In this document: positions 8,102 through 23,007 of the stretch, piece after piece
How positions within the stretch are numbered: position 1 is the stretch's first letter
Layout: each line of letters opens with the position of its first letter
Assembly (NCBI GenBank): GCA_001880285.1
Contig: CP016269.1
Span: forward strand, 1,250,501-1,314,500
Source of the DNA: Flavobacteriaceae bacterium UJ101
GTDB taxonomy: Bacteria; Bacteroidota; Bacteroidia; Flavobacteriales; UJ101
Direction: 5' to 3'
DNA length: 64,000 nt
Made by a program: the position numbers and the translations under genes
Notes under the pieces: generated by a model
Seen by the model: only the letters and a program-made list of their open reading frames with translations
Databases searched by the model: none
What the model was told of the DNA's origin: nothing

Positions 8102-9169
8102 TTACGAATTTTTGATATAGTTCACAATCCATTCACCTACTTCAGAAGTAGTGTGTTTTTCACCATTTCCAGCTAAATCCACCGTTACAAAATTTTGTTT
8201 CAAACTTTCATTCACAGCTTCTTTAATCAAATTGGCTTCATCATTCAATTTAAAAGCATATTCAAACATCATTGCAGCAGATAATATTGTTCCTAGTGGA
8301 TTTGCAATATTTTGTCCTGCTGCTTGAGGATAAGAACCATGAATAGGCTCAAAAACAGAAGTGTGCACACCCACTGAGGCAGATGGCATCAAGCCCATAG
8401 AGCCTGAAATCACTGAAGCTTCGTCAGTCAAAATATCACCAAACATATTTTCTGTTACCATTACATCAAACCCTTCAGGCCAGGTAATAATACGCATAGC
8501 GGCAGCATCTACAAACAAATATTCTGTTTCTACTTCTGGAAACTCTTTCTCAATTTCTTGAGCTACTTCACGCCACAAACGAGAGGTTTCCATTACGTTA
8601 GCTTTATCTACTACACATAATTTTTTACGTCGTTTCATAGCATATTCATATGCTAAACGTACAATGCGTTCTACTTCTTCTTTTGAATAAATACAAACAT
8701 CATAAGCTACATTACCTTCTTCTTTTCTTCCTTTATCTCCAAAATAACTTCCTCCTGTTAGTTCACGAACACATACAAAATCGGCATTTTCAACTAATTC
8801 TTTCTTTAAAGGTGATTTATCTACCAAAGAAGGAAATACCGATGTGGGACGAATATTAGCATATAAACCCAAATCTTTTCGCATTTTCAATAAACCTTGC
8901 TCTGGACGTACTTTTGCAGAAGGATCATTATCAAACTTGGGATGACCAATGGCTCCAAAAAGCACCGCATCTGCTTGCATACACAACTCATGAGTTGATT
9001 TAGGATAAGGTTCTCCAACTTCATCAATGGCCGTGGCACCTACCAAGGCTTCTTGATAACTTAATTCGTGGCCAAACTTTTCAGCAATGACTTGAGTCAC
9101 TTTTAAGGCTTCTTGGGTTACTTCTGGGCCTATTCCATCGCCTGGAAGTACGGCTATGTTTAATTTCAT
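8102..9169 (-). CDS. leuB: 3-isopropylmalate dehydrogenase
   Basis: Oxidatively decarboxylates 3-isopropylmalate with NAD+, the third step of leucine synthesis. The 355-residue protein begins [17 protein letters not shown] and contains the family Mg2+/substrate motif [15 protein letters not shown] and the NAD-binding region [16 protein letters not shown]. All expected segments are intact. It is the last gene of the ilv-leu operon, separated from the preceding YwqK-like gene by 158 bp that contain a REP-like palindrome. If the paralogous synthase upstream makes citramalate, LeuB would also act on 3-methylmalate. Confidence 0.97.
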
Positions 9170-9327: not shown

Positions 9328-9915
9328 TTATTCTTGTGTTTTCATAAAAGTACCTCGATAAGGTTTTCCATTTCGATACGTTCCCTCAGCCAATATATGT
9401 TGCATATTTTCATCTTCGTATATGATTTTCTTACGAAGTTGTCCCTTCTTATATTCACTCCAGACCGTAACCGTTCCCATACAATTGGATTTCTCTTCTA
9501 TAAACGTTCCTTCGTAAGGTTCTTCATCCCAATAAATTCCTTCGGCCTTAACGGAGCCATCTAAGGCATATTTTGTTGTCAGTTCATTTCCTTCCTTGTC
9601 GTATTTTGATATGGTTTGAATAGCAATTGGTTCTTCATTTTGATAAAAAAAATCAACAAATGTACCTCTTTGTAAATCAAAATCGAAATTACCTATTAAT
9701 TTTCCTGATTTAGCATAATATTCAATTATTTCAGCAGGACAATTTATATCTTTCATAGCCAATTCTCCTGTATTATAATAAGTTAGCTTCACTATCGTAT
9801 CAAAACAAACTCTACTTTGAACAAATTCCTGTCCATATAAAAAAGAGATACTATTCCAAATCATAAAAATTCCAATTCCTATTTTTTTTAGTATATCTTT
9901 TATCTCAGCATACAT
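9328..9915 (-). CDS. YwqK/MORN-like repeat protein of unknown function
   Basis: A 195-residue protein. Residues 1-28 contain a hydrophobic stretch (IGIGIFMIWNSISFLYG) that could be a signal peptide or membrane anchor. The rest contains short repeats of the kind seen in YwqK/MORN-variant proteins: GKLIGNFDF, EGIYWDEEPYEGTF and AEGTYRNGKPYRGTF. It starts 4 nt after the end of leuA2 and is therefore co-transcribed with the leucine genes, yet nothing links it to amino-acid synthesis. I infer an insertion into the operon. Function unknown. Confidence 0.7.
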   Translation of the reverse strand: MYAEIKDILKKIGIGIFMIWNSISFLYGQEFVQSRVCFDTIVKLTYYNTGELAMKDINCPAEIIEYYAKSGKLIGNFDFDLQRGTFVDFFYQNEEPIAIQTISKYDKEGNELTTKYALDGSVKAEGIYWDEEPYEGTFIEEKSNCMGTVTVWSEYKKGQLRKKIIYEDENMQHILAEGTYRNGKPYRGTFMKTQE

Positions 9916-9919
9916 GGCT

Positions 9920-11437
9920 TTAATTCTTAATTAAATTTAGCATTCTTTCTGTTGCTTTTAACGCCGATACCGTTTGATCTGAATCTAATCCTCTTGTTTT
10001 AAATTCACGTTCTCCTTTCCATGTAATAATCGTCTCACAAAGAGCATCCGTTTTTCCTCCAGGAGGTATTCGTACGGTATAATCTGTTAACTCAGGTAAA
10101 AGTATATTTAACTTTTTATAAATACCTTTCAAAGCATTCATAAAAGCATCATATTGTCCATCACCTTGTGCACTTCCCTCATAAGTTTTATCATCAATAA
10201 TAACTGATAAGGTTGCAGCCGGACGCATATTTTTTGAATGGGTTAACATATAATTTTCAATACTTACCCGTTTTTCAATAGCTTTATTATCTAAGACATC
10301 TGAAATAATATACGGCAAATCATCTGCTGTGATCATTTCTTTTTTATCACCTAAACTGATGATTTGCTGTGTTACTTTTTTCAGGTCTTCATTTGACAAT
10401 TTGATACCTAATTCTTGTAAATTTTTTTCAATATTGGCTTTCCCTGATGTTTTCCCTAATGCATATTTACGTTTACGCCCAAAACGTTCAGGCATTAAAT
10501 CATTAAAATACAAATTGTTTTTATTATCTCCATCTGCATGAATTCCAGCAGTTTGAGTAAACACATTTTCACCTACAACGGGTTTATTAACCGGGATTCT
10601 AAATCCAGAAAACGTTTCGACCAACTTTGAAACTTTAAATAAAGAACTTTCCTTAATTTGAGTTTCAACATCAGTATAGAAATCATTTAAAATAGCACAA
10701 GCACTTGCTAAAGGGGCATTTCCTGCACGTTCTCCCATTCCATTTATAGTTAAATGCAACCCATGAACACCTCCTTTAATTGCTCCCATCACATTGGCAA
10801 TACTCAAATCATAATCGTTATGAGCATGAAAATCAAAATGCAAAGAAGGATACATTACAGTTAATTCTTTTACAAAATCATACGATTCACAAGGTGTTAA
10901 AATCCCCAAGGTATCAGGTAATAAAACTCGTTTCACAGGCTGTCTTGTAAGAAAATCTATCATTTGCAAAACATATTCTTTCGAATGACGCATTCCATTA
11001 CTCCAATCTTCTAAATACACATTAGTTGAAACTCCTTTTTTCTGTGCATAAGCAATAACTTCTGCTATTTCTGAAAAATGCTGTTCGGGTGTTTTTTTTA
11101 ATTGATGTGTTAAATGATTTAAAGATCCTTTAGTTAAAAGATTCATCGTGATAGCTCCAGCTTCACCCATCCAATCAACTGAAGTCTTACCATCTACAAA
11201 GGTTAACACTTCTATTTTTTCTAAATGATTATTTTCTTTAGCCCAAGACGTAATCTTTTTAACTGCCTGAAATTCACCTTCTGAAACACGAGCTGAAGCA
11301 ATTTCCAATCGATCAACTTGTATTTCTTCTAATAATAGCTGTGCAATTGTTAATTTTTCAGCAGCTGAAAACGATACTCCGGAGGTTTGTTCCCCATCTC
11401 GAAGTGTCGTATCCATTATTTCAATTTTTCTTTTCAT
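9920..11437 (-). CDS. 2-isopropylmalate/citramalate synthase-family protein (LeuA2)
   Basis: A 505-residue acyl-transferring aldolase of the HMGL-like/LeuA superfamily, condensing acetyl-CoA with a 2-oxo acid. The TIM-barrel has [15 protein letters not shown] at the start and the metal-binding HAHNDYDLSIAN loop; a LeuA-type regulatory (allosteric) domain fills about residues 385-505. A second, more canonical LeuA is encoded at 13754-15286, so this enzyme may use a different 2-oxo acid: either 2-oxoisovalerate as LeuA or pyruvate as citramalate synthase. The pairing with leuB, leuC and leuD fits either. Substrate choice cannot be read with certainty from sequence. Confidence 0.85.
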   Translation of the reverse strand: MKRKIEIMDTTLRDGEQTSGVSFSAAEKLTIAQLLLEEIQVDRLEIASARVSEGEFQAVKKITSWAKENNHLEKIEVLTFVDGKTSVDWMGEAGAITMNLLTKGSLNHLTHQLKKTPEQHFSEIAEVIAYAQKKGVSTNVYLEDWSNGMRHSKEYVLQMIDFLTRQPVKRVLLPDTLGILTPCESYDFVKELTVMYPSLHFDFHAHNDYDLSIANVMGAIKGGVHGLHLTINGMGERAGNAPLASACAILNDFYTDVETQIKESSLFKVSKLVETFSGFRIPVNKPVVGENVFTQTAGIHADGDNKNNLYFNDLMPERFGRKRKYALGKTSGKANIEKNLQELGIKLSNEDLKKVTQQIISLGDKKEMITADDLPYIISDVLDNKAIEKRVSIENYMLTHSKNMRPAATLSVIIDDKTYEGSAQGDGQYDAFMNALKGIYKKLNILLPELTDYTVRIPPGGKTDALCETIITWKGEREFKTRGLDSDQTVSALKATERMLNLIKN

Positions 11438-11484: not shown

Positions 11485-12081
11485 TTAAAAAGGTCTTTTT
11501 ATTTCAAAATCAGCTATTTCTGTTTTCATGGCTTGTAAATAATCTATATCATCATAGCCATTTAACATATTTTCTTTTTTATAACTATTTATTTCAAAAG
11601 ATTCAGCCTCCCCAGTTGCTTTTAAAATCACTTTTTGTTCAGGTAGATTAACTTCAATTTCTGTTTTAGGATCTGCTTCAATTGCTCGAAATATTTTCTC
11701 TACAAATTCTTCTGAAACCTGAACAGGTAAAACTCCTACATTTAAACAATTTCCTTTGAAAATATCTGCAAAAAAGGAAGAGATAACACAACGGAAACCA
11801 TAATCATATACAGACCATGCTGCATGTTCTCGTGAAGATCCACTACCAAAGTTCTTTCCTCCTACTAATATCTTTCCTCCATAAATTGGATTATTTAAAA
11901 CAAAACTTTCTTTTGGAGTTCCATCTACATTATAACGCCAATCTCTAAAAAGATTATCTCCAAAGCCTTTACGTTCTGTTGCCTTTAAAAATCGTGCTGG
12001 TATAATTTGATCGGTATCCACATTCTCAATAGGAAGAGGTACTGCTGTACTAGTTAATATATTAAATTTATCGTATGCCAT
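11485..12081 (-). CDS. leuD: 3-isopropylmalate dehydratase small subunit
   Basis: The swivel domain of isopropylmalate isomerase, which pairs with LeuC to convert 2- to 3-isopropylmalate. The 198-residue sequence carries NVDTDQIIPARFLK and the GKNFGSGSSREHAAW substrate-binding motif typical of the aconitase small-subunit family. It is normal in length and intact. It sits between leuC and leuA2, with 108 bp before it and 47 bp after it. Confidence 0.96.
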   Translation of the reverse strand: MAYDKFNILTSTAVPLPIENVDTDQIIPARFLKATERKGFGDNLFRDWRYNVDGTPKESFVLNNPIYGGKILVGGKNFGSGSSREHAAWSVYDYGFRCVISSFFADIFKGNCLNVGVLPVQVSEEFVEKIFRAIEADPKTEIEVNLPEQKVILKATGEAESFEINSYKKENMLNGYDDIDYLQAMKTEIADFEIKRPF

Positions 12082-12189: not shown

Positions 12190-13584
12190 TTATAAAAACT
12201 CCCTAGGATCCGTAACAACTCCAGTAATAGCAGCTGCAGCTGCAGTATATGGACTCGCCAACATTGTACGTGCGCCAGGCCCTTGACGTCCTTCAAAATT
12301 TCGATTAGATGTACTCACAGCATATTTTCCTGCTGGAATTTTATCATCATTCATTGCCAAACATGCAGAACAACCCGGTTGACGTAAAGCAAAACCTGCT
12401 TCTGTTAAAATATCTAATATTCCTTCCTCTTTAATCTGAGCTTCAACAATATGAGAACCTGGAACAATCCATGCGGTTACATTTTCTGCTTTTTTCTTTC
12501 CTTTCACAATAGATGCAAAAGCTCGAAAATCTTCAATTCGACCATTCGTACAACTTCCTACAAATACATAATCTACTTTTTTACCTGAGATTGGATCTGA
12601 TTCATTATACCCCATATAATCTAATGATTTTTTATAGGTTGCTTCATTTTCTTTTGCTTGAGAAACGGTCGGAATTTTCTGCGAGATTCCTATTCCCATA
12701 CCTGGATTTGTTCCATAGGTTATCATCGGCTCTATATTGGAAGCATCAAATGTATATTCTTTATCAAAAGTAGCTTCTTGATCTGTTTTTAATGTTTTCC
12801 AATACGCTACTAACTCTTCCCATTTTTCACCTTTAGGAGCTTGCTCTCTTCCTTTTATATAATCAAAAGTAGTTTGATCGGGAGCAATCATTCCACCACG
12901 TGCACCACTCTCAATACTCAGATTACATACTGTCATACGGCCTTCCATTGTCATATTTTCAAAAACCTCTCCTGCGTATTCAATAAAATGACCTGTACCA
13001 CCAGCGGTTGTTATTTGTGAAATAATGTACAATGCTACATCTTTTGGTGTAACACCATGACCCAATTTTCCATTTACCGTAATACGCATTTTTTTAGGTT
13101 TAGGCTGCATAATACATTGTGAGGAAAGTACCATCTCTACTTCAGAAGTACCTATTCCAAATGCAATAGCTCCAAAAGCTCCATGAGTAGATGTATGTGA
13201 ATCTCCACATACAATAGTCATACCCGGTAAGGTAATTCCATTTTCAGGTCCCACTACGTGAACAATTCCATTTTTCTCGTGTCCTAATCCCCAATGTGAT
13301 ATTCCATATTTATTTGAATTTTGTTCCAATGCTTTCAATTGATTGGCTGATAGTGGATCTTCAACTGGCAAATGTTGGTTAACAGTAGGTGTGTTATGAT
13401 CTGCTGTAGCAAATGTTCTATTGGGATACATCACACCAATCCCTCTATTTTCTAGTCCTAGAAAAGCTACAGGAGACGTAACTTCATGAATTAAATGACG
13501 ATCAATAAAAAGTACATCTGGTCCATCTTCAATGGATCGTACTATATGAGCGTCCCATACTTTATCAAATAGTGTTCTGTTCAT
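12190..13584 (-). CDS. leuC: 3-isopropylmalate dehydratase large subunit
   Basis: Catalytic large subunit of isopropylmalate isomerase, a [4Fe-4S] aconitase-family enzyme. The three cluster cysteines are in FVGSCTNGR and [11 protein letters not shown] (C-x2-C). The N-terminal [15 protein letters not shown] and the [13 protein letters not shown] motif are also family hallmarks. The 464 residues are the usual length. Together with LeuD it handles 2-isopropylmalate and, in organisms with citramalate synthase, citramalate. A 169-bp gap with a palindromic repeat separates it from leuA. Confidence 0.97.
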
Positions 13585-13753: not shown

Positions 13754-15286
13754 TTATGCTTTATACAAAGCAATTTCTTCCTCTCTTTTTAAATGTCTTA
13801 TTGATTTATTAACAGCATCAATATAAGCTTTAACTGATGCTTCTACAATATCTGTACTGGCAGCAAATCCACGGCTTTTCTTACCATTTTTTACACTAAT
13901 ATGCACCTTACATAAATCTTCACTACCTTTTGTAACCCCTTGAATTAAAAATTCTTCAATATTCATTTCTTTTTGGATTACCTTTTTAATTGCTGTAATC
14001 GCTGCATCAACAGGTCCATTACCCGTCGCAGTCGTTTCAAATTTTTCACCTTCAATATCTAAATGAACAACAGCTGTTGGAATATTTGTTCCTGAAATAA
14101 CTTGTAGAAAATCCAATTTGATTTGATCTTCACTATTTAGTTCTTCTTCATCTATTAAAATCAACAAATCTTCATTAACTACTTCACGTTTTTGATCCGC
14201 CATTACAAGAAAATCTTGATAAATTTGATCAATTTTCTCACTATCAAAAGAAAAACCTAATACTTCTAAACGATGTTTGATTGCTGCACGTCCACTTCTT
14301 GCAGTCAAGACAATTGAACTTTCATCCACTCCAACATCTTTAGGATCCATAATTTCATAATTTTCACGATGTTTTAATACACCATCTTGATGGATTCCTG
14401 ATGAATGAGCAAAAGCATTACGCCCTACAATTGCTTTATTGGGTTGAACAGGCATATTCATCAAACCTGAAACCAACTTACTAATACTATTTAATTGTTC
14501 AGTAACAATGTTCGTTTGAAAAGGTAAATCCTGATGACAATGAATGGCCATAACCACTTCTTCTAATGAGGTGTTCCCTGCACGTTCACCAATCCCATTA
14601 ATAGTAACTTCCACTTGTCGTGCCCCATTCATTACACCTGCTAAAGTATTGGCTGTTGATAAACCTAAATCTTCATGACAATGCGTTGAAATGATGGCTT
14701 TATCGATATTAGGAACATTATTCATTAAGAAAGCTATTTTTTCTCCATATTGATGTGGTAAACAATAACCCGTCGTATCAGGAATATTGACTACTGTGGC
14801 TCCTGCCTTAATTACAGCTTCTACAACACGAGCTAAATTTTCTTTTTCAGTACGTCCTGCATCTTCAATATAAAATTCAACATCATCAATTAAGTTTCGA
14901 GCATACTTAGTTGCATTTACTCCTCTTTCTATAATTTTTTCTAACGTTGAATTAAATTTATACTTAATATGAAAATCTGATGCTCCAATCCCTGTATGAA
15001 TTCGTCCTTTTTTAGCAAATTTCAATGCTTGAGCTGCTACATCAATATCATTTTCTACAGCTCGAGTTAAGGCACAAATCGTAGGATTTGTCACAGCTTT
15101 TGATATTTCGATAACTGAATTAAAATCACCAGGACTTGATACAGGAAATCCTGCTTCAATAATATCAACTCCTAATGCTTCTAATCGCTTTGCTATTTCA
15201 ATTTTTTCAATCGTATTTAACTGACAACCCGGGACTTGTTCTCCATCTCGAAGTGTTGTATCAAATATATATAGTCTTTCGCTCAT
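13754..15286 (-). CDS. leuA: 2-isopropylmalate synthase
   Basis: Condenses acetyl-CoA with 2-oxoisovalerate, the first leucine-specific step. The 510-residue protein has the catalytic TIM barrel ([16 protein letters not shown] at the start and the metal-binding [12 protein letters not shown] loop) and the C-terminal leucine-feedback regulatory domain ending near 505 ([15 protein letters not shown]). It is the more canonical of two LeuA-type enzymes in this operon. It lies between ilvC and leuC. No threonine deaminase gene (ilvA) is present anywhere in the cluster. Confidence 0.95.
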
Positions 15287-15377: not shown

Positions 15378-16439
<1,062 letters not shown>

Positions 16440-16461: not shown

Positions 16462-16983
16462 TTAATTGAATTCTTCTAATAGTTTTGATACATGCATCGG
16501 TTTTTTTGTAATCGCTACACAACCTGATCGAACAAATTGCAATACTCCAAAAGGTTGTAATTCCTGTAATAATTCTTCTGTTTCTTTTAAATGTCCTGTC
16601 TTTTCAATTACTACAAAATCTTTACTCACTGATATAATACTTGCATGACTTTGTCTTACAATAGATTCTAGCGATTTTTCTTGTTCATCTGCATTTTCTA
16701 AAGCAATTTTATATAATGCCACCTCTTGAAAAATTGTATCGGAGTGTTCATGATAAAAAGCTCTTATTACTTCTATTTGTTTCTCTAATTGTGAAATTAC
16801 TTTTTGAACTCGTTCTTCTTCGTCAAAAACAAGAATAGTGAACTTATGAACCTCTTTTATTTCTGATTTAGAAACCGTTAAACTTTCAATATTCATTTGC
16901 CTACGGGTAAAAATATTGGTGATTCGATTTAACAATCCGATTTGATGTTCTGTATAAACTGTTATAAAATATTTTCCTTGCAT
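16462..16983 (-). CDS. ilvN: Acetolactate synthase small (regulatory) subunit
   Basis: Regulatory partner of IlvB. The N-terminal ACT domain (YFITVYTEHQIGLLNRITNIF, about residues 5-80) binds valine for feedback inhibition, and a second ACT-like part follows to residue 173. The ratio of one large and one small subunit gene is normal. The gap to ilvB is 90 bp and contains degenerate repeats of the ACTGATTTC family. Confidence 0.92.
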   Translation of the reverse strand: MQGKYFITVYTEHQIGLLNRITNIFTRRQMNIESLTVSKSEIKEVHKFTILVFDEEERVQKVISQLEKQIEVIRAFYHEHSDTIFQEVALYKIALENADEQEKSLESIVRQSHASIISVSKDFVVIEKTGHLKETEELLQELQPFGVLQFVRSGCVAITKKPMHVSKLLEEFN

Positions 16984-17073: not shown

Positions 17074-18759
17074 TTAACTTAACCTTACTTCATCTACAGC
17101 TGCTCCAGTTGGCATCATAGGGAATACATTATCTTCTTTTTCAACCACTACTTCTAATAAATAGGATCCTTTAGAATTAAGAAATTCTTTAATGGCTTCT
17201 TGTAAATCTCCTCTTTGATTAATTGATTTCGCTTGAATTCCATAGGAATCTGCTAATTTGACTAAATCAGGGCTTTTCATATCGGTAAAAGAATAGCGTC
17301 TTTCAAAGAAAAGTTCTTGCCACTGACGTACCATTCCTAAAAACTGATTATTCAATACCAGAATTTTAATATCCAATTCTTCTTGTGCAATCGTTCCCAA
17401 TTCTTGAATATTCATTTGAAAACCACCATCACCCGAAATGGAGATAACTTGTCTTTTAGGAGCTCCTAATTTTGCTCCAATGGCAGAAGGCAACCCAAAT
17501 CCCATTGTCCCTAAACCACCTGACTGTACATTACTTTTATTGGAATCAAATTGAAAATAACGTGATGCTGCCATTTGGTGTTGTCCTACATCTACTGTTA
17601 AAATAGCACCTTCTTTTTTATTTTCATTAATCACCCTTATAACTTCACTCATTAGCATTCCTTCTGTAGAAGGATTCATATCATGCTGAATTACTTCTTC
17701 ATATTCTTCCTTTTGTAATTCTTTGAATCGAGCATACCATTCTGTATATTCTTTTTTCTTTATTTGTTTCGTGAACATCGGTAAAGATTCTTTACAATCT
17801 CCTACAACTGCTACATCTGCTTTAATAATTTTATCAATTTCTGCCGGATCTAATTCCAAGTGAATCACTTTGGCTTGTTTAGCATATTTTTCAACATTAC
17901 CTGTAACACGATCATCGAAACGCATTCCAATAGCAATTAAAACATCACACTCATTGGTTAGTAAATTAGGAGCATAATTTCCATGCATTCCCAACATTCC
18001 CATATTTTGAGGATGGTTGGTTGGAATATTTTGCACACCTAATAATGTCCAAGCTACAGGAATACCTGATTGTTCTACAAAATCCATAAACTCTTTTTCA
18101 GCATTTCCCAGTGTTACACCTTGACCAACAAGTATGTAAGGTTGCTTAGCTTCATTAATCAATTGTATTGCTTCATCTACTTTAGTAGTATCTACTTTTG
18201 GAAGTGCTTTATAACTACGAACTTTAGTACATTTTTCGTAAGAAAAATCTGCTTCAGAAAACTGGGCATCTTTTGTAATATCAATTACAACAGGCCCTGG
18301 ACGCCCACTTTTAGCTATATAAAAAGCTTTTGCAATAGCAGGTGCAATATCTTCCGCTTTGGTGACCTGAATATTCCATTTGGTTACCGGAGTAGAAATT
18401 CCAATAATATCCGTTTCTTGAAACGCATCGGTACCTAATAAATGTTTGGCTACTTGCCCTGTAATACAAACTAAAGGAGTACTATCAATCATAGCATCTG
18501 CCAAACCTGTAATCAAATTGGTTGCTCCTGGCCCCGAAGTTGCAAAACAGACTCCTACTTTATCTGAAACACGTGCATAACCTTGTGCCGCATGAATAGC
18601 ACCTTGTTCGTGCCTTGTTAAAACATGATTAATTTGATCTAGATAACCGTATAAACTATCATAAACGGGCATAATAGCTCCTCCTGGATAACCAAATATG
18701 GTATCTACATTTTCACTTAAAAGTGATTTTACAACTATTTCAGAACCTTGTAATTTCAT
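17074..18759 (-). CDS. ilvB: Acetolactate synthase large (catalytic) subunit
   Basis: Thiamine-diphosphate enzyme forming 2-acetolactate from two pyruvates, or 2-aceto-2-hydroxybutyrate. The 561-residue protein contains the N-terminal TPP-binding glutamate region (FGYPGGAIMPVYDSL), the central FAD-type domain, and the C-terminal TPP motif SGDGGFQMNIQELGT. All domains are intact. It follows ilvD at a 61-bp gap and precedes ilvN. This is the entry enzyme for valine and leucine synthesis. Confidence 0.97.
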   Translation of the reverse strand: MKLQGSEIVVKSLLSENVDTIFGYPGGAIMPVYDSLYGYLDQINHVLTRHEQGAIHAAQGYARVSDKVGVCFATSGPGATNLITGLADAMIDSTPLVCITGQVAKHLLGTDAFQETDIIGISTPVTKWNIQVTKAEDIAPAIAKAFYIAKSGRPGPVVIDITKDAQFSEADFSYEKCTKVRSYKALPKVDTTKVDEAIQLINEAKQPYILVGQGVTLGNAEKEFMDFVEQSGIPVAWTLLGVQNIPTNHPQNMGMLGMHGNYAPNLLTNECDVLIAIGMRFDDRVTGNVEKYAKQAKVIHLELDPAEIDKIIKADVAVVGDCKESLPMFTKQIKKKEYTEWYARFKELQKEEYEEVIQHDMNPSTEGMLMSEVIRVINENKKEGAILTVDVGQHQMAASRYFQFDSNKSNVQSGGLGTMGFGLPSAIGAKLGAPKRQVISISGDGGFQMNIQELGTIAQEELDIKILVLNNQFLGMVRQWQELFFERRYSFTDMKSPDLVKLADSYGIQAKSINQRGDLQEAIKEFLNSKGSYLLEVVVEKEDNVFPMMPTGAAVDEVRLS

Positions 18760-18820: not shown

Positions 18821-20500
18821 TTAAAATTGATCGGTTACACACCCTTCAGAAGCGGAAGCTACTGTTTTTGCATATTTATATAAATAACCTGACGAAGCTT
18901 TCAAAGGTGGTTCAATCCAGCTCTCTTTTCTCTTTTCAATTTCTTCATTTGATAATTTTACATCAATACTATTATTTACCGCATCAATAGTAATTTCATC
19001 TCCATCTTCTAATAATCCTATAACACCTCCATTTTGTGCTTCAGGTGTTACGTGACCTACTACAAACCCATGTGAACCTCCTGAAAAGCGACCGTCCGTA
19101 ATCAATGCTACCTCTTTTCCAAGACCTTTACCCATAATAGCTGATGTTGGTTTTAACATTTCAGGCATACCTGGCCCTCCTTTAGGACCTACATATCGAA
19201 TTACAATTACATCACCTTTTTGAATTTTATCAGATAATATGGCTTTGTTAGCTTCTTCTTCGCTATTGTACACTTTTGCTGTTCCTTTAAATAATTCGCC
19301 TTCTTTTCCTGTAATTTTAGCAACCGCTCCTTCACTAGCTAAGTTTCCAAATAAAACACGTAAATGACCATCCTTTTTCAAAGGTTTCTCGACAGGTTTT
19401 ACCACTTCTTGCTCAAAATTAATTTCTGGAATTTCAGCTAAATTTTCTGCTAATGTCTTACCTGTAACCGTCATACATGAGCCATCTAGAAATCCTTGAT
19501 TTAATAGATATTTCATGACAGCTGGAGTTCCTCCAATTTTAAATATATCTTCCATTAAGAATTGTCCACTTGGCTTTAAATCGGCTAACAAAGGAACTTT
19601 TTTATTGATCTCCTGAAAATCTTCCATTTTTAAATCAATATTCCCTGTTCGTGCAACGGCTAATAAATGTAAAACCAAATTTGTTGAACCTCCTAGTGCA
19701 ACAGCTACTGTAATAGCATTCGTTAAAGAAGCTTTCGTAACAATAGTTGAAGGAAGAATATTCTGTTGTAATAAGTTTTCAATTGCGTGAGCAGCCTTTT
19801 CACATTCTTCTTCTTTTTCTTGACTTACTGCCGGTGATGATGATGAGTATGGCAACGCCATTCCCATTGCTTCTAAAGCTACAGCCATGGTATTCGCTGT
19901 ATACATTCCTCCACAAGCTCCTGGTCCAGGGCAAGCATTTTTTATAATTCCACGAAAATCTTCTTCTGAAATATTTCCTGCATTACGTTCTCCTAATGCT
20001 TCAAAAGAAGACACAATATTTAATTTTTCTCCATTATAACAACCTGATTTTATGGTTCCTCCATAAATCACTAATGAAGGACGGTTCAATCGTAATAAAG
20101 CCATTAAACAACCTGGCATATTCTTATCACAACCTGGAATGGCCACCACGGCATCATAATGTTGTGCACCTGTTAAGGCTTCAATACTGTCAGCTATAAT
20201 TTCACGAGAAGGTAATGAATAACGCATTCCTGCTGTTCCCATTGACATTCCATCACTTACACCAATGGTTGTAAACTGAAATCCTATTAGGTCTTTTTGT
20301 TGAACTGATTTTTTTACTTTTTTTCCTAAATCATCTAAATGCATATTACAAGGATTCCCTTCATACCAATTGCTTACAATTCCTACTTGAGGTTTTTGTA
20401 AATCTTCTTCTGTTAATCCAACAGCATGTAACATAGACTGTGCTGCTGGTAAGGTATCATCCTGTGTAATTTTTGAACTGTACGTATTCAGTTTTGACAT
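18821..20500 (-). CDS. ilvD: Dihydroxy-acid dehydratase
   Basis: Iron-sulfur enzyme that dehydrates dihydroxy acids to 2-oxoisovalerate and 2-oxo-3-methylvalerate, the last common step before transamination. The 559-residue sequence carries the cluster cysteine segments [14 protein letters not shown] and [16 protein letters not shown], and the C-terminal [12 protein letters not shown] motif. It is the first structural gene of the ilv-leu operon and lies 22 nt downstream of an intrinsic terminator preceded by a branched-chain leader peptide, so it should be under transcription attenuation. Confidence 0.97.
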
Positions 20501-20522: not shown

Positions 20523-20548
20523 AAAAAAAACCTTCCATGTGGAAGGTC
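20523..20548 (-). terminator. Attenuator terminator of the ilv-leu operon
   Basis: On the minus strand, stem ACCTTCC (20547-20541) with GGAAGGT (20536-20530), loop ACAT, followed by a run of T (20530-20523). It lies between the leader peptide and ilvD, so it acts before the operon. A competing hairpin is possible: GTGGGA (20571-20566) can pair with TTCCAC (20544-20539), which includes most of the 5' arm of this terminator and part of its loop. Terminator structure is seen directly; regulation is inferred. Confidence 0.85.
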
Positions 20549-20565
20549 AAGTCAATATCATATCG

Positions 20566-20571
20566 TCCCAC
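20566..20571 (-). promoter_or_regulatory. Antiterminator strand upstream of the ilv attenuator
   Basis: GTGGGA starts 8 nt after the leader stop codon. A ribosome resting at that stop would cover it and let the terminator form. A ribosome stalled earlier at the Ile/Leu codons would leave it free to pair with TTCCAC (20544-20539; six pairs, one of them G-U) and prevent termination. Pairing is weak but positioned as expected. Confidence 0.5.
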
Positions 20572-20578
20572 TATTTTG

Positions 20579-20632
20579 TTATAATTGGCATAATAAAATA
20601 ATAATTGATAATATGACATTGTTTACTCTCAT
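20579..20632 (-). CDS. Branched-chain leader peptide (ilv-leu attenuator)
   Basis: A 17-residue ORF, MRVNNVILSIIILLCQL, followed by TAA, on the minus strand 132 nt upstream of ilvD. Ten residues are Val (2), Ile (4) or Leu (4), including an uninterrupted Ile-Ile-Ile-Leu-Leu run. The products of the operon are exactly these amino acids. The stop lies 31 nt upstream of an intrinsic terminator with a plausible antiterminator strand. Together these are the parts of a classical ribosome-mediated attenuator. ATG start; no clear Shine-Dalgarno, as is normal in Bacteroidota. It is too short for standard gene finders. Not likely to arise by chance at this place; expression is inferred. Confidence 0.8.
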   Translation of the reverse strand: MRVNNVILSIIILLCQL

Positions 20633-20853: not shown

Positions 20854-23007
20854 TTATTTGACGATTGTCATTTCGTCTATTAAATTTTGGGCACCTGCAT
20901 ATTTATCGATAATAAACAATACATAACGTATATCTACAATGATTGTACGTTGTAAGTTATCTTCGAATAAAATATCACCACTTAATGCTTCTGAATTTCC
21001 ATCAAATGCAGAACCAATTAAAGCTCCTTTACCATTGATTACTGGAGATCCTGAATTTCCTCCTGTAATATCATTATCGGTTAAAAAACAAACAGGTAAA
21101 TAACCTTCTGGTGCAGCATATTGTCCATAATCTTTTTTGTTATACAAATCAATTAATTTCTCCGGAAGATCAAACTCTAAGTCTCCTTTCTTATACTTAG
21201 CCATTGCTCCTTTTAGAGTTGTATAATAGTTTTCTGAAGCATCATTAGGACGATCGGCTCTTCTTGGTAACGTTCTTACTGTTCCATAAGTCAATCGCAT
21301 CGTTGAATTAGCATCTGGATAAAACACCTTATCAACTTGAGACTCACGAAGTGCTTTTGTATACAAACGTTCAGCTTTTGCTAATACTTCTTCGTTTTCT
21401 TTTGTTTTTTCAAAACTTGCTCTATAATCTTTTACAATATTTTGTGTGAATTGTAATAACGGATCACTTCCTAAACTCACTAAATTTCCTGTTTTTAGTG
21501 CTTCTTTTATTTTCTCTTTATCAAAGAAAATGGATGTTTTTTCTAAATCATCTGTAAACTTACTAAAGTCTCCATTGTATTTCTGACTCAACTCTTTTAT
21601 ATAAGACGATTGTAGTTTAGCAGGAACCTTATCCATATAAGTAGACAATACAGAAGCTATAATATCTTTTTCTACTTCTGGATAAATAGTTTCATATTTT
21701 TCATCAATTTTCTTAGCAAATTTATCAAAAGATGTTGCTCTTTCCTCTTCAGATAACATTCCGTATTCTTCAAACACTTCTCCTAATGTAAATGGCATTG
21801 TAGCTAAATCACTACCTCTTAAAACCATCATAGAATGATAAAAAGGTCTATAGTAGTCTCCTGAAGAAGCATAATATTTATCTAATAATGGAAATATCTG
21901 CTCATATTCAGCTCTTCTTTTTTTCTTTTTCTTAATCCACTTTTGTAAATCTTTTTCTATTTTTTGTTTATTGGCAACGGTATTGTTTTTCTCTAATGAT
22001 TCAATCATTCCAATACGGTTTTTCCAATAATTAGCCAATCTAGAATATTTAGAAGCATAAGCAATTTTGATTGCTGGATCTGCATCCATATGTTTTTTCA
22101 TTCCATCCATAGCGGATTTTGAAGCATCAATCCATGCAGGGAATTCATCATTAATAGACTCCTCAATTCCTTGTGATGTTTTATAACGATTGGTTACTCC
22201 TGGGAATCCTAAAATCATCGCAAAATCACCTGGCTCAATACCTTCTAAACTAATAGGCAAATGATGTTTTGGTTTTAAAGGGACATTATCTTTAGAGTAT
22301 GCAGCAGGATTTCCATCTTTATCTCCATATACTCTAAAAATTGAGAAATCACCTGTATGACGTGGCCATTCCCAGTTATCAGTATCACCTCCATATTTCC
22401 CTATAGAAGAAGGTGGTGCTCCAACTAAACGAACATCATCATACTGAATATAGCGAAACATATAAAATTCATTTCCTTTAAAGAAAGATTTTGTTTCCAC
22501 AATATATTTTCCATTTTCTGAATATTCTTCTTCAATTGCTTTCTTTTCTGCTTCAATAATTTCTTGACGTTTTTCTTGTGTCATAGAACCATCTAACTTG
22601 GATTGAATGCGATTAGTCATATCTTCCATTCGATCTAAGAAACGAACATTCAAATCTTTTGGTTTTAGTTCCTCATCTTTTTTATATGCCCAAAAACCAT
22701 CTTTTAAATAATCATGTTCAGGAGTTGAAAGCTCTGCAATAGCTTCATAACCACAATGGTGATTGGTTAATACTAATCCTTCTTTTGAAATGATTTCTGC
22801 CGTACATCCTTGATTAAAATGGACAATAGCATCTTTTAAACTAGAATTATTAACACTATAAATTTCTTCAGGAGTTAATTGTAACCCCTTTTCTTTCATG
22901 TCTTGGTAGTTTAAACGCTCTATCAACATTAAAAGCCACATTCCTTCGTCAGCCCATACAAACATGGAACTAAATAAAAACGAAAATGCTAATACTATTT
23001 TCTTCAT
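20854..23007 (-). CDS. S46-family dipeptidyl peptidase, DPP7-like
   Basis: Periplasmic serine dipeptidyl peptidase that releases dipeptides from oligopeptides for amino-acid nutrition. A signal peptide covers residues 1-19. The catalytic triad is visible: H84 in LTNHHCGYEA, D220 in WPRHTGDFS, and S652 in TGGNSGSPV. The residue 18 positions after the serine decides specificity in Porphyromonas enzymes: arginine in DPP11 (acidic P1) and glycine in DPP7 (hydrophobic P1). Here it is G670 in AFDGNSEAL, so DPP7-type specificity is predicted. The 717-residue length is normal. It is transcribed alone, with a terminator behind it. Confidence 0.92.
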   Translation of the reverse strand: MKKIVLAFSFLFSSMFVWADEGMWLLMLIERLNYQDMKEKGLQLTPEEIYSVNNSSLKDAIVHFNQGCTAEIISKEGLVLTNHHCGYEAIAELSTPEHDYLKDGFWAYKKDEELKPKDLNVRFLDRMEDMTNRIQSKLDGSMTQEKRQEIIEAEKKAIEEEYSENGKYIVETKSFFKGNEFYMFRYIQYDDVRLVGAPPSSIGKYGGDTDNWEWPRHTGDFSIFRVYGDKDGNPAAYSKDNVPLKPKHHLPISLEGIEPGDFAMILGFPGVTNRYKTSQGIEESINDEFPAWIDASKSAMDGMKKHMDADPAIKIAYASKYSRLANYWKNRIGMIESLEKNNTVANKQKIEKDLQKWIKKKKKRRAEYEQIFPLLDKYYASSGDYYRPFYHSMMVLRGSDLATMPFTLGEVFEEYGMLSEEERATSFDKFAKKIDEKYETIYPEVEKDIIASVLSTYMDKVPAKLQSSYIKELSQKYNGDFSKFTDDLEKTSIFFDKEKIKEALKTGNLVSLGSDPLLQFTQNIVKDYRASFEKTKENEEVLAKAERLYTKALRESQVDKVFYPDANSTMRLTYGTVRTLPRRADRPNDASENYYTTLKGAMAKYKKGDLEFDLPEKLIDLYNKKDYGQYAAPEGYLPVCFLTDNDITGGNSGSPVINGKGALIGSAFDGNSEALSGDILFEDNLQRTIIVDIRYVLFIIDKYAGAQNLIDEMTIVK

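Follow-up and report, generated by a model that had tools for sequence, protein, structure and literature searches.

The region directly upstream of ilvD in Flavobacteriaceae bacterium UJ101 is very probably a ribosome-mediated transcription attenuator of the ilv-leu operon. It is located on the minus strand of the 64,000-nucleotide stretch of DNA that was analyzed (contig CP016269.1, positions 1,250,501 to 1,314,500; hereafter the window), and is composed of a short leader ORF and three alternative helices, 1:2, 2:3, and 3:4, the last of which is an intrinsic terminator in front of the first structural gene. Both the 2:3 and the 1:2 pairings co-vary among related genomes. The positions of all features are summarized in Table 1.

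Table 1. Features of the ilv-leu leader region, the operon and its upstream neighbor in the window, and further amino acid leaders of the UJ101 genome.
Feature	Position	Strand	Basis or remark
Leader ORF MRVNNVILSIIILLCQL and its stop	20632-20579	-	Sequence; equivalents at ilv operon head in relatives
Regulatory codons GTC ATA TTA TCA ATT ATT ATT TTA TTA	Codons 6-14 of leader ORF	-	
Segment 1, portion of leader coding region pairing with segment 2	20621-20589	-	Holds Ile and Leu codons
Segment 2, 3' side of 1:2 hairpin, contains GTGGGACGATAT including GTGGGA	20583-20553	-	
GTGGGA, antiterminator (2:3) core	20571-20566	-	Starts 8 nt 3' of leader stop
TTCCAC, antiterminator partner within segment 3 (terminator 5' arm and two loop bases)	20544-20539	-	
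Intrinsic terminator 3:4, GACCTTCC-ACAT-GGAAGGTT (3' arm GGAAGG)	Stem-loop 20548-20529	-	
Terminator T run (T8; TTTTTTTT)	Ends 20523; whole terminator 20548-20523	-	
TACATTAG, possible -7 box of leader promoter	20646-20639	-	Position; imperfect TAnnTTTG match
ilvD, dihydroxy-acid dehydratase, first structural gene	18821-20500	-	TIGR00110, 752 bits, cut-off 618
ilvB, acetolactate synthase large subunit	17074-18759	-	TIGR00118
ilvN, acetolactate synthase small subunit	16462-16983	-	TIGR00119
ilvC, ketol-acid reductoisomerase	15378-16400	-	TIGR00465
leuA, 2-isopropylmalate synthase	13754-15286	-	TIGR00973
leuC, isopropylmalate dehydratase large subunit	12190-13584	-	TIGR00170
leuD, isopropylmalate dehydratase small subunit	11485-12081	-	TIGR00171
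Probable (R)-citramalate synthase cimA	9920-11437	-	Best model NF042433, 679 bits, below cut-off 950
ORF X, 195 aa, between cimA-like gene and leuB	9328-9915	-	Possible signal peptide
Probable leuB, 3-isopropylmalate dehydrogenase	8102-9169	-	Reading of translation
Upstream Dpp7-like peptidase gene	20854-23007	-	
Peptidase gene terminator AAGATACTACT-GTAC-AGTAGTATCTT TTTTG	20829-20804	-	Separates peptidase from leader unit
His leader MNINRLHHHPHYKNFTEVSE and terminator before hisG	ORF genome 2014916-2014978; L189:1417-1535	+	Same genome
Phe/Tyr leader MNWNTYTNFYFYFFFKD and terminator before pheA	ORF genome 704637-704690; L233:4637-4751	+	
Short Trp leader MNFWWNTY and terminator before trpE	ORF genome 157918-157944; L191:1419-1497	+	

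Leader ORF, terminator, and antiterminator

Direct reading of the sequence confirmed to the base what the initial annotation had described, namely a 17-codon ORF rich in Ile, Leu, and Val, the GTGGGA motif, a terminator, and their spacing to ilvD. The ORF reads ATG AGA GTA AAC AAT GTC ATA TTA TCA ATT ATT ATT TTA TTA TGC CAA TTA TAA, and 10 of its 17 residues are Val (two), Ile (four), or Leu (four). The terminator begins about 30 nt 3' of the leader stop, and the ATG of ilvD, at 20500, follows 22 nt past the T run. The suggested pairing between GTGGGA and TTCCAC is present as a GUGGGA:UUCCAC duplex, is mutually exclusive with the terminator, and shows compensatory change in relatives; the best duplex of GTGGGA with the 5' arm of the terminator has an energy of -8.0 kcal/mol. 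As a hairpin the antiterminator of the window reaches -5.9 kcal/mol compared with -10.9 kcal/mol for the terminator, and the antiterminator must therefore form first and win kinetically. An out-of-frame ORF that runs from a second ATG (20619) through the terminator was dropped as a candidate, as the frame rich in Ile, Leu, and Val accounts for the conservation.

The protector hairpin 1:2

Two competing folds had been proposed for the leader in the initial annotation, and both are supported by relatives, but a third helix, formed between the leader coding region and segment 2, was missed. The region 20640-20549 folds with an energy of -20.9 kcal/mol (z -3.38), which was equalled by 2 of 200 shuffled sequences; in this fold, the partner of the GTGGGA segment is the stretch containing the regulatory Ile codons. 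Folding of whole leaders from 56 loci gave a mean z of -2.0, with 24 loci below -2, and when coding and downstream segments were swapped between loci none of 20,000 permutations was as good as the real combination, relatedness being only partly corrected for. In an alignment of 13 sequences of relatives (family f5), compensatory changes were observed at two pairs in the 1:2 helix and at two pairs in the terminator. A three-segment design that lacks the 1:2 helix, derived from a motif-only test (mean z -0.17), was overturned by the whole-leader folding. The strength of the 1:2 hairpin thus argues for the full classical scheme of 1:2, 2:3, and 3:4 helices, in which an untranslated leader should terminate as well.

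The codon usage of the leaders differs from that of the structural gene, with GTC making up 47% of the leader Val codons versus 18% in ilvD, and ATT 80% of the leader Ile codons versus 59% in ilvD. GTC ATT is able to pair with a GATGGC/AATGGT-like segment, and a double duty of these codons in coding and in 1:2 pairing may explain the bias.

Conservation across Flavobacteriales

The GTDB genus and family of UJ101 are represented by the genome of the window alone. In a search at the level of the order, ilvD-like matches were obtained in 145 genomes, and the 5' regions of 74 of these were compared together with that of the window. Of the 75 Flavobacteriales loci, 59 have an ilv operon that is headed by a leader ORF rich in Ile, Leu, and Val followed by a terminator. 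Leader, terminator, and antiterminator, and with them the attenuator reading of the initial annotation, are all supported by relatives, including compensatory change between the antiterminator segment and the terminator arm. If ilvE comes before ilvD, the module is located ahead of ilvE, and the loci first scored as lacking a module mostly have this arrangement, with ilvE directly before ilvD. No recognizable module was detected at the place examined in 16 of the 75 loci; in five of these leuB lies directly before ilvD, while in most of the others ilvD comes first. Examples of leader peptides from relatives are MQISIIITSVVVVNVIHTSASGML, MYQLLSVIIIVIIIPLRL, MNNSIIIIVISVIIGFRW, and MKNQILNIIPVIIIVIISQRLGMVY. 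As the leader ORFs of relatives were chosen by their content of Ile, Leu, and Val, this content is not independent evidence, while position and pairing are. Similar leaders were identified in several further families of Bacteroidia.

The 5' arm of the terminator varies by clade (CCTTCC, CCTGTATCA, CCCTCTCAC, CCATTCTC, CCATCCTC, and CCTTTCTC), CCTTCC being common to the window and many Flavobacteriaceae, and the stop-proximal segments vary in step with it (GGGAATGGT, TTGATATAG, GTGAGAaGG, GAGnGATGG, GAGGTGG, and GAGTCAGGC). The counterparts of the segment 2 motif of the window are GGGAATGGTAT, TTGATATAG, GTGAGAaGG, or GAGnGATGG. When the two sides of the 2:3 pairing were swapped among 25 non-redundant loci, mean energies were -11.5 kcal/mol for the own and -7.8 kcal/mol for swapped partners, and none of 20,000 permutations equalled the real pairing, with relatedness among the 25 loci only partly corrected for. 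When the 25 terminators were ranked as partners for the segment of the window, the terminator of the window came first. In 57 of 58 loci, the start of the most favorable antiterminator duplex falls within -21 to +6 relative to the leader stop, with the window the most 3' (+6), and the motif itself starts at -33 to 0 in other leaders and at +6 in the window.

These spacings also bear on whether the short ORF acts chiefly on the translation of ilvD, through reinitiation or coupling, rather than on termination. Reinitiation can be helped by leader genes that lie near a start codon, and in Bacteroidetes their distances peak at 11-14 bp (PMC4833913). In the window, the leader stop is 78 nt away from ilvD, with a strong terminator in between, the corresponding distance is about 80 to about 300 nt in relatives where ilvD comes first, and the conserved pairing targets the terminator. 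We therefore consider such a role very unlikely compared with attenuation.

Independently of the attenuator, a second conserved element was observed between the attenuator and ilvD in the ilvD 5' regions of L111, L112, L115-L117, L121, L125-L127, L148, L150, L167, and L169. It consists roughly of TTGRAYATSATA, followed after 15-25 nt by CTGNTAATCAG or ATTCAG; it is also present at loci that have no attenuator, and is absent from the window.

Other leaders in UJ101 and tandem modules in relatives

Leader-terminator pairs were also identified before hisG, pheA, and trpE of UJ101 (Table 1). The antiterminators of the hisG and pheA leaders lie near the leader stop, with energies of -12.3 and -8.7 kcal/mol, respectively, while the trpE leader has a weak candidate antiterminator of -5.5 kcal/mol. 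The pheA gene (prephenate dehydratase) was named from a reading of its translation. Upstream of thrA and ilvE in this genome, no convincing combination of leader and terminator was identified.

The window carries one module only. In at least 16 genomes of relatives, two complete Ile/Val leader-terminator modules are located in series before ilvE, about 120-145 nt apart (L249-L258 and L260-L267). The carriers are Chryseobacterium-like genomes and some Flavobacteriaceae, names that were guessed from sequence and context. One example has MNFTNQKNIIVISIIAVVISNSKETAF and a terminator, followed by MYQLLSVIIIVIIIPLRL and a terminator, and at L255 the two modules are near-identical duplicates (MKTNSNIIIISIIIRSFE and MKTNMNIIIISIIIRSFE).

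Chance expectation and Rfam search

When the 130 nt preceding the terminator were dinucleotide-shuffled 5000 times, an ORF with at least 10 Ile, Leu, or Val residues making up at least 58% of its length was obtained once, and a terminator of equal score was obtained in none of 3000 shuffles. Under a weaker criterion (at least six such residues, at least 50%), an ORF was found in 84 of the 5000 shuffles. In 464 kb of the UJ101 genome, 35 premature-terminator-like sites lie directly before a gene, and an ORF with at least 50% Ile, Leu, and Val occurs at four of these. Such frequencies lend something to the idea of a leaky constitutive terminator that is preceded by a fortuitous AT-rich ORF and involves no translational regulation, but the other three ORFs are 3' ends of ordinary upstream coding genes. 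Neither the conservation in front of the first ilv operon gene with a co-varying antiterminator, nor the amino acid-matched leaders before the his, phe, and trp genes, would be expected from a leaky terminator, and we regard this explanation as highly improbable. Richness in Ile, Leu, and Val alone is moderately unusual and is weak evidence in an AT-rich genome; it is the position before ilvD and the conservation that count.

A structured 5' region with a terminator could also belong to a riboswitch, such as a T-box, that binds a metabolite or a tRNA and to which the ORF would be incidental. The Rfam covariance search of the locus revealed no T-box, known amino acid leader, or riboswitch, as its six matches (best E 0.23) all fell far short of the gathering score, and what is conserved is the ORF, its stop codon, and the adjoining pairing, not an aptamer. 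A riboswitch is thus the least probable of the alternatives considered, with only a slight chance of being correct.

Operon and transcription unit

The operon has the order ilvDBNC-leuACD-cimA-X-leuB, with all genes on the minus strand. Its gene content allows the operon to provide Val, Leu, and, through the citramalate synthase-like gene and citramalate, also Ile; codons for all three of these end products occur in the leader. Since the upstream peptidase gene has its own terminator, the leader is probably the beginning of a separate transcript. About half of the relatives have a perfect TAnnTTTG box 24-29 nt upstream of the leader start codon; in the window only TACATTAG was found, a poor match that lies 6 nt before the leader ATG, and the leader could therefore be nearly without a 5' UTR, which is uncertain.

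Proposed mechanism

From this anatomy we infer that the leader ORF is translated, that ribosomes stall within it, and that the resulting read-through is a physiological response to starvation. RNA polymerase would transcribe the short leader while a ribosome translates MRVNNVILSIIILLCQL. With charged Ile, Leu, and Val tRNAs plentiful, the ribosome would reach the stop codon and block segment 2 with its GTGGGA motif, so that segments 3 and 4 would form the terminator and transcription would end before ilvD. If one of these tRNAs is scarce, the ribosome would stall at the Val, Ile, or Leu codons and open hairpin 1:2; the freed segment 2 would then pair with segment 3, no terminator would form, and the ilv-leu operon would be read. 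In an untranslated leader, hairpin 1:2 would hold segment 2 and the terminator would form.

The last Leu codon and the motif are 10 nt apart, a geometry fitting stalling, and the motif starts 6-7 nt past the stop. The initial annotation had the ribosome at the stop codon cover GTGGGA. The masking may be only partial, as the segment lies farther 3' of the stop in the window than in other leaders.

Relation to known attenuators and significance

Amino acid operons of enteric bacteria (ilvGMEDA, leuABCD, hisG, pheA, and trpE of Escherichia coli/Salmonella) are textbook examples of ribosome-mediated attenuators. The leader of UJ101 resembles the enteric scheme, as generally known, in having a leader peptide rich in the end products, 1:2, 2:3, and 3:4 helices, and a terminator before the first gene. 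It differs in having no sequence relation to the enteric attenuators by Rfam, in serving one Ile/Val/Leu operon with all three kinds of codon in one 17-residue peptide, and in the flavobacterial TAnnTTTG-type promoters. The kind of mechanism is thus already known, while its predicted occurrence here is well supported by comparison.

The initial annotation fairly stated that such leaders are not known to be routinely annotated in Flavobacteriales, although the transcriptome of Flavobacterium psychrophilum, which belongs to the same order as UJ101, already pointed strongly to leader-peptide attenuation in front of amino acid biosynthesis operons (PMC9723704). Those putative attenuators are known from transcript mapping (PMC9723704); the passages of that report that describe them name no operon, peptide, or helix, and ilv may be among them. 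Short ORFs reminiscent of leader peptides were also reported in a transcript map of B. thetaiotaomicron (PMC7366714), and our search of the literature on leader-peptide attenuators in Bacteroidetes/Bacteroidota found nothing more specific than these two studies. In another phylum, a uORF upstream of the ilvBNC operon of Corynebacterium, with the ilvB-II motif, regulates operon expression, a likeness drawn at the level of the abstract (PMC10272879). The leader region of mgtCBR in Salmonella contains tandem attenuators with a pair of short ORFs (PMC3641672); in the tandem modules of the relatives described above, both ORFs have Ile/Val codons and both modules have their own terminators. Our literature search found no tandem attenuators for branched-chain amino acid operons.

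As judged from genome comparison, the predicted attenuator is widespread in a phylum where such control is hardly documented, and it seems likely that in much of Bacteroidia the ilv operon is under the standing control of a ribosome-mediated attenuator, which has been duplicated into serial modules in several lineages. Four amino acid gene sets of UJ101 (ilv-leu, his, phe, and trp) have amino acid-matched leaders, and the genes for the leader peptides are small, lack annotation, and escape automated gene finders. The leader of the window offers a model of amino acid control that is testable at the level of single bases, in a phylum where the regulation of biosynthetic operons is little known, and the tandem Ile/Val attenuators are a natural setting for asking what two in series gain over one. 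If this reading is correct, the single module of the window would be one member of a Bacteroidia family of ilv attenuators that has no Rfam entry, and the serial Ile/Val modules could act as a two-step gate.
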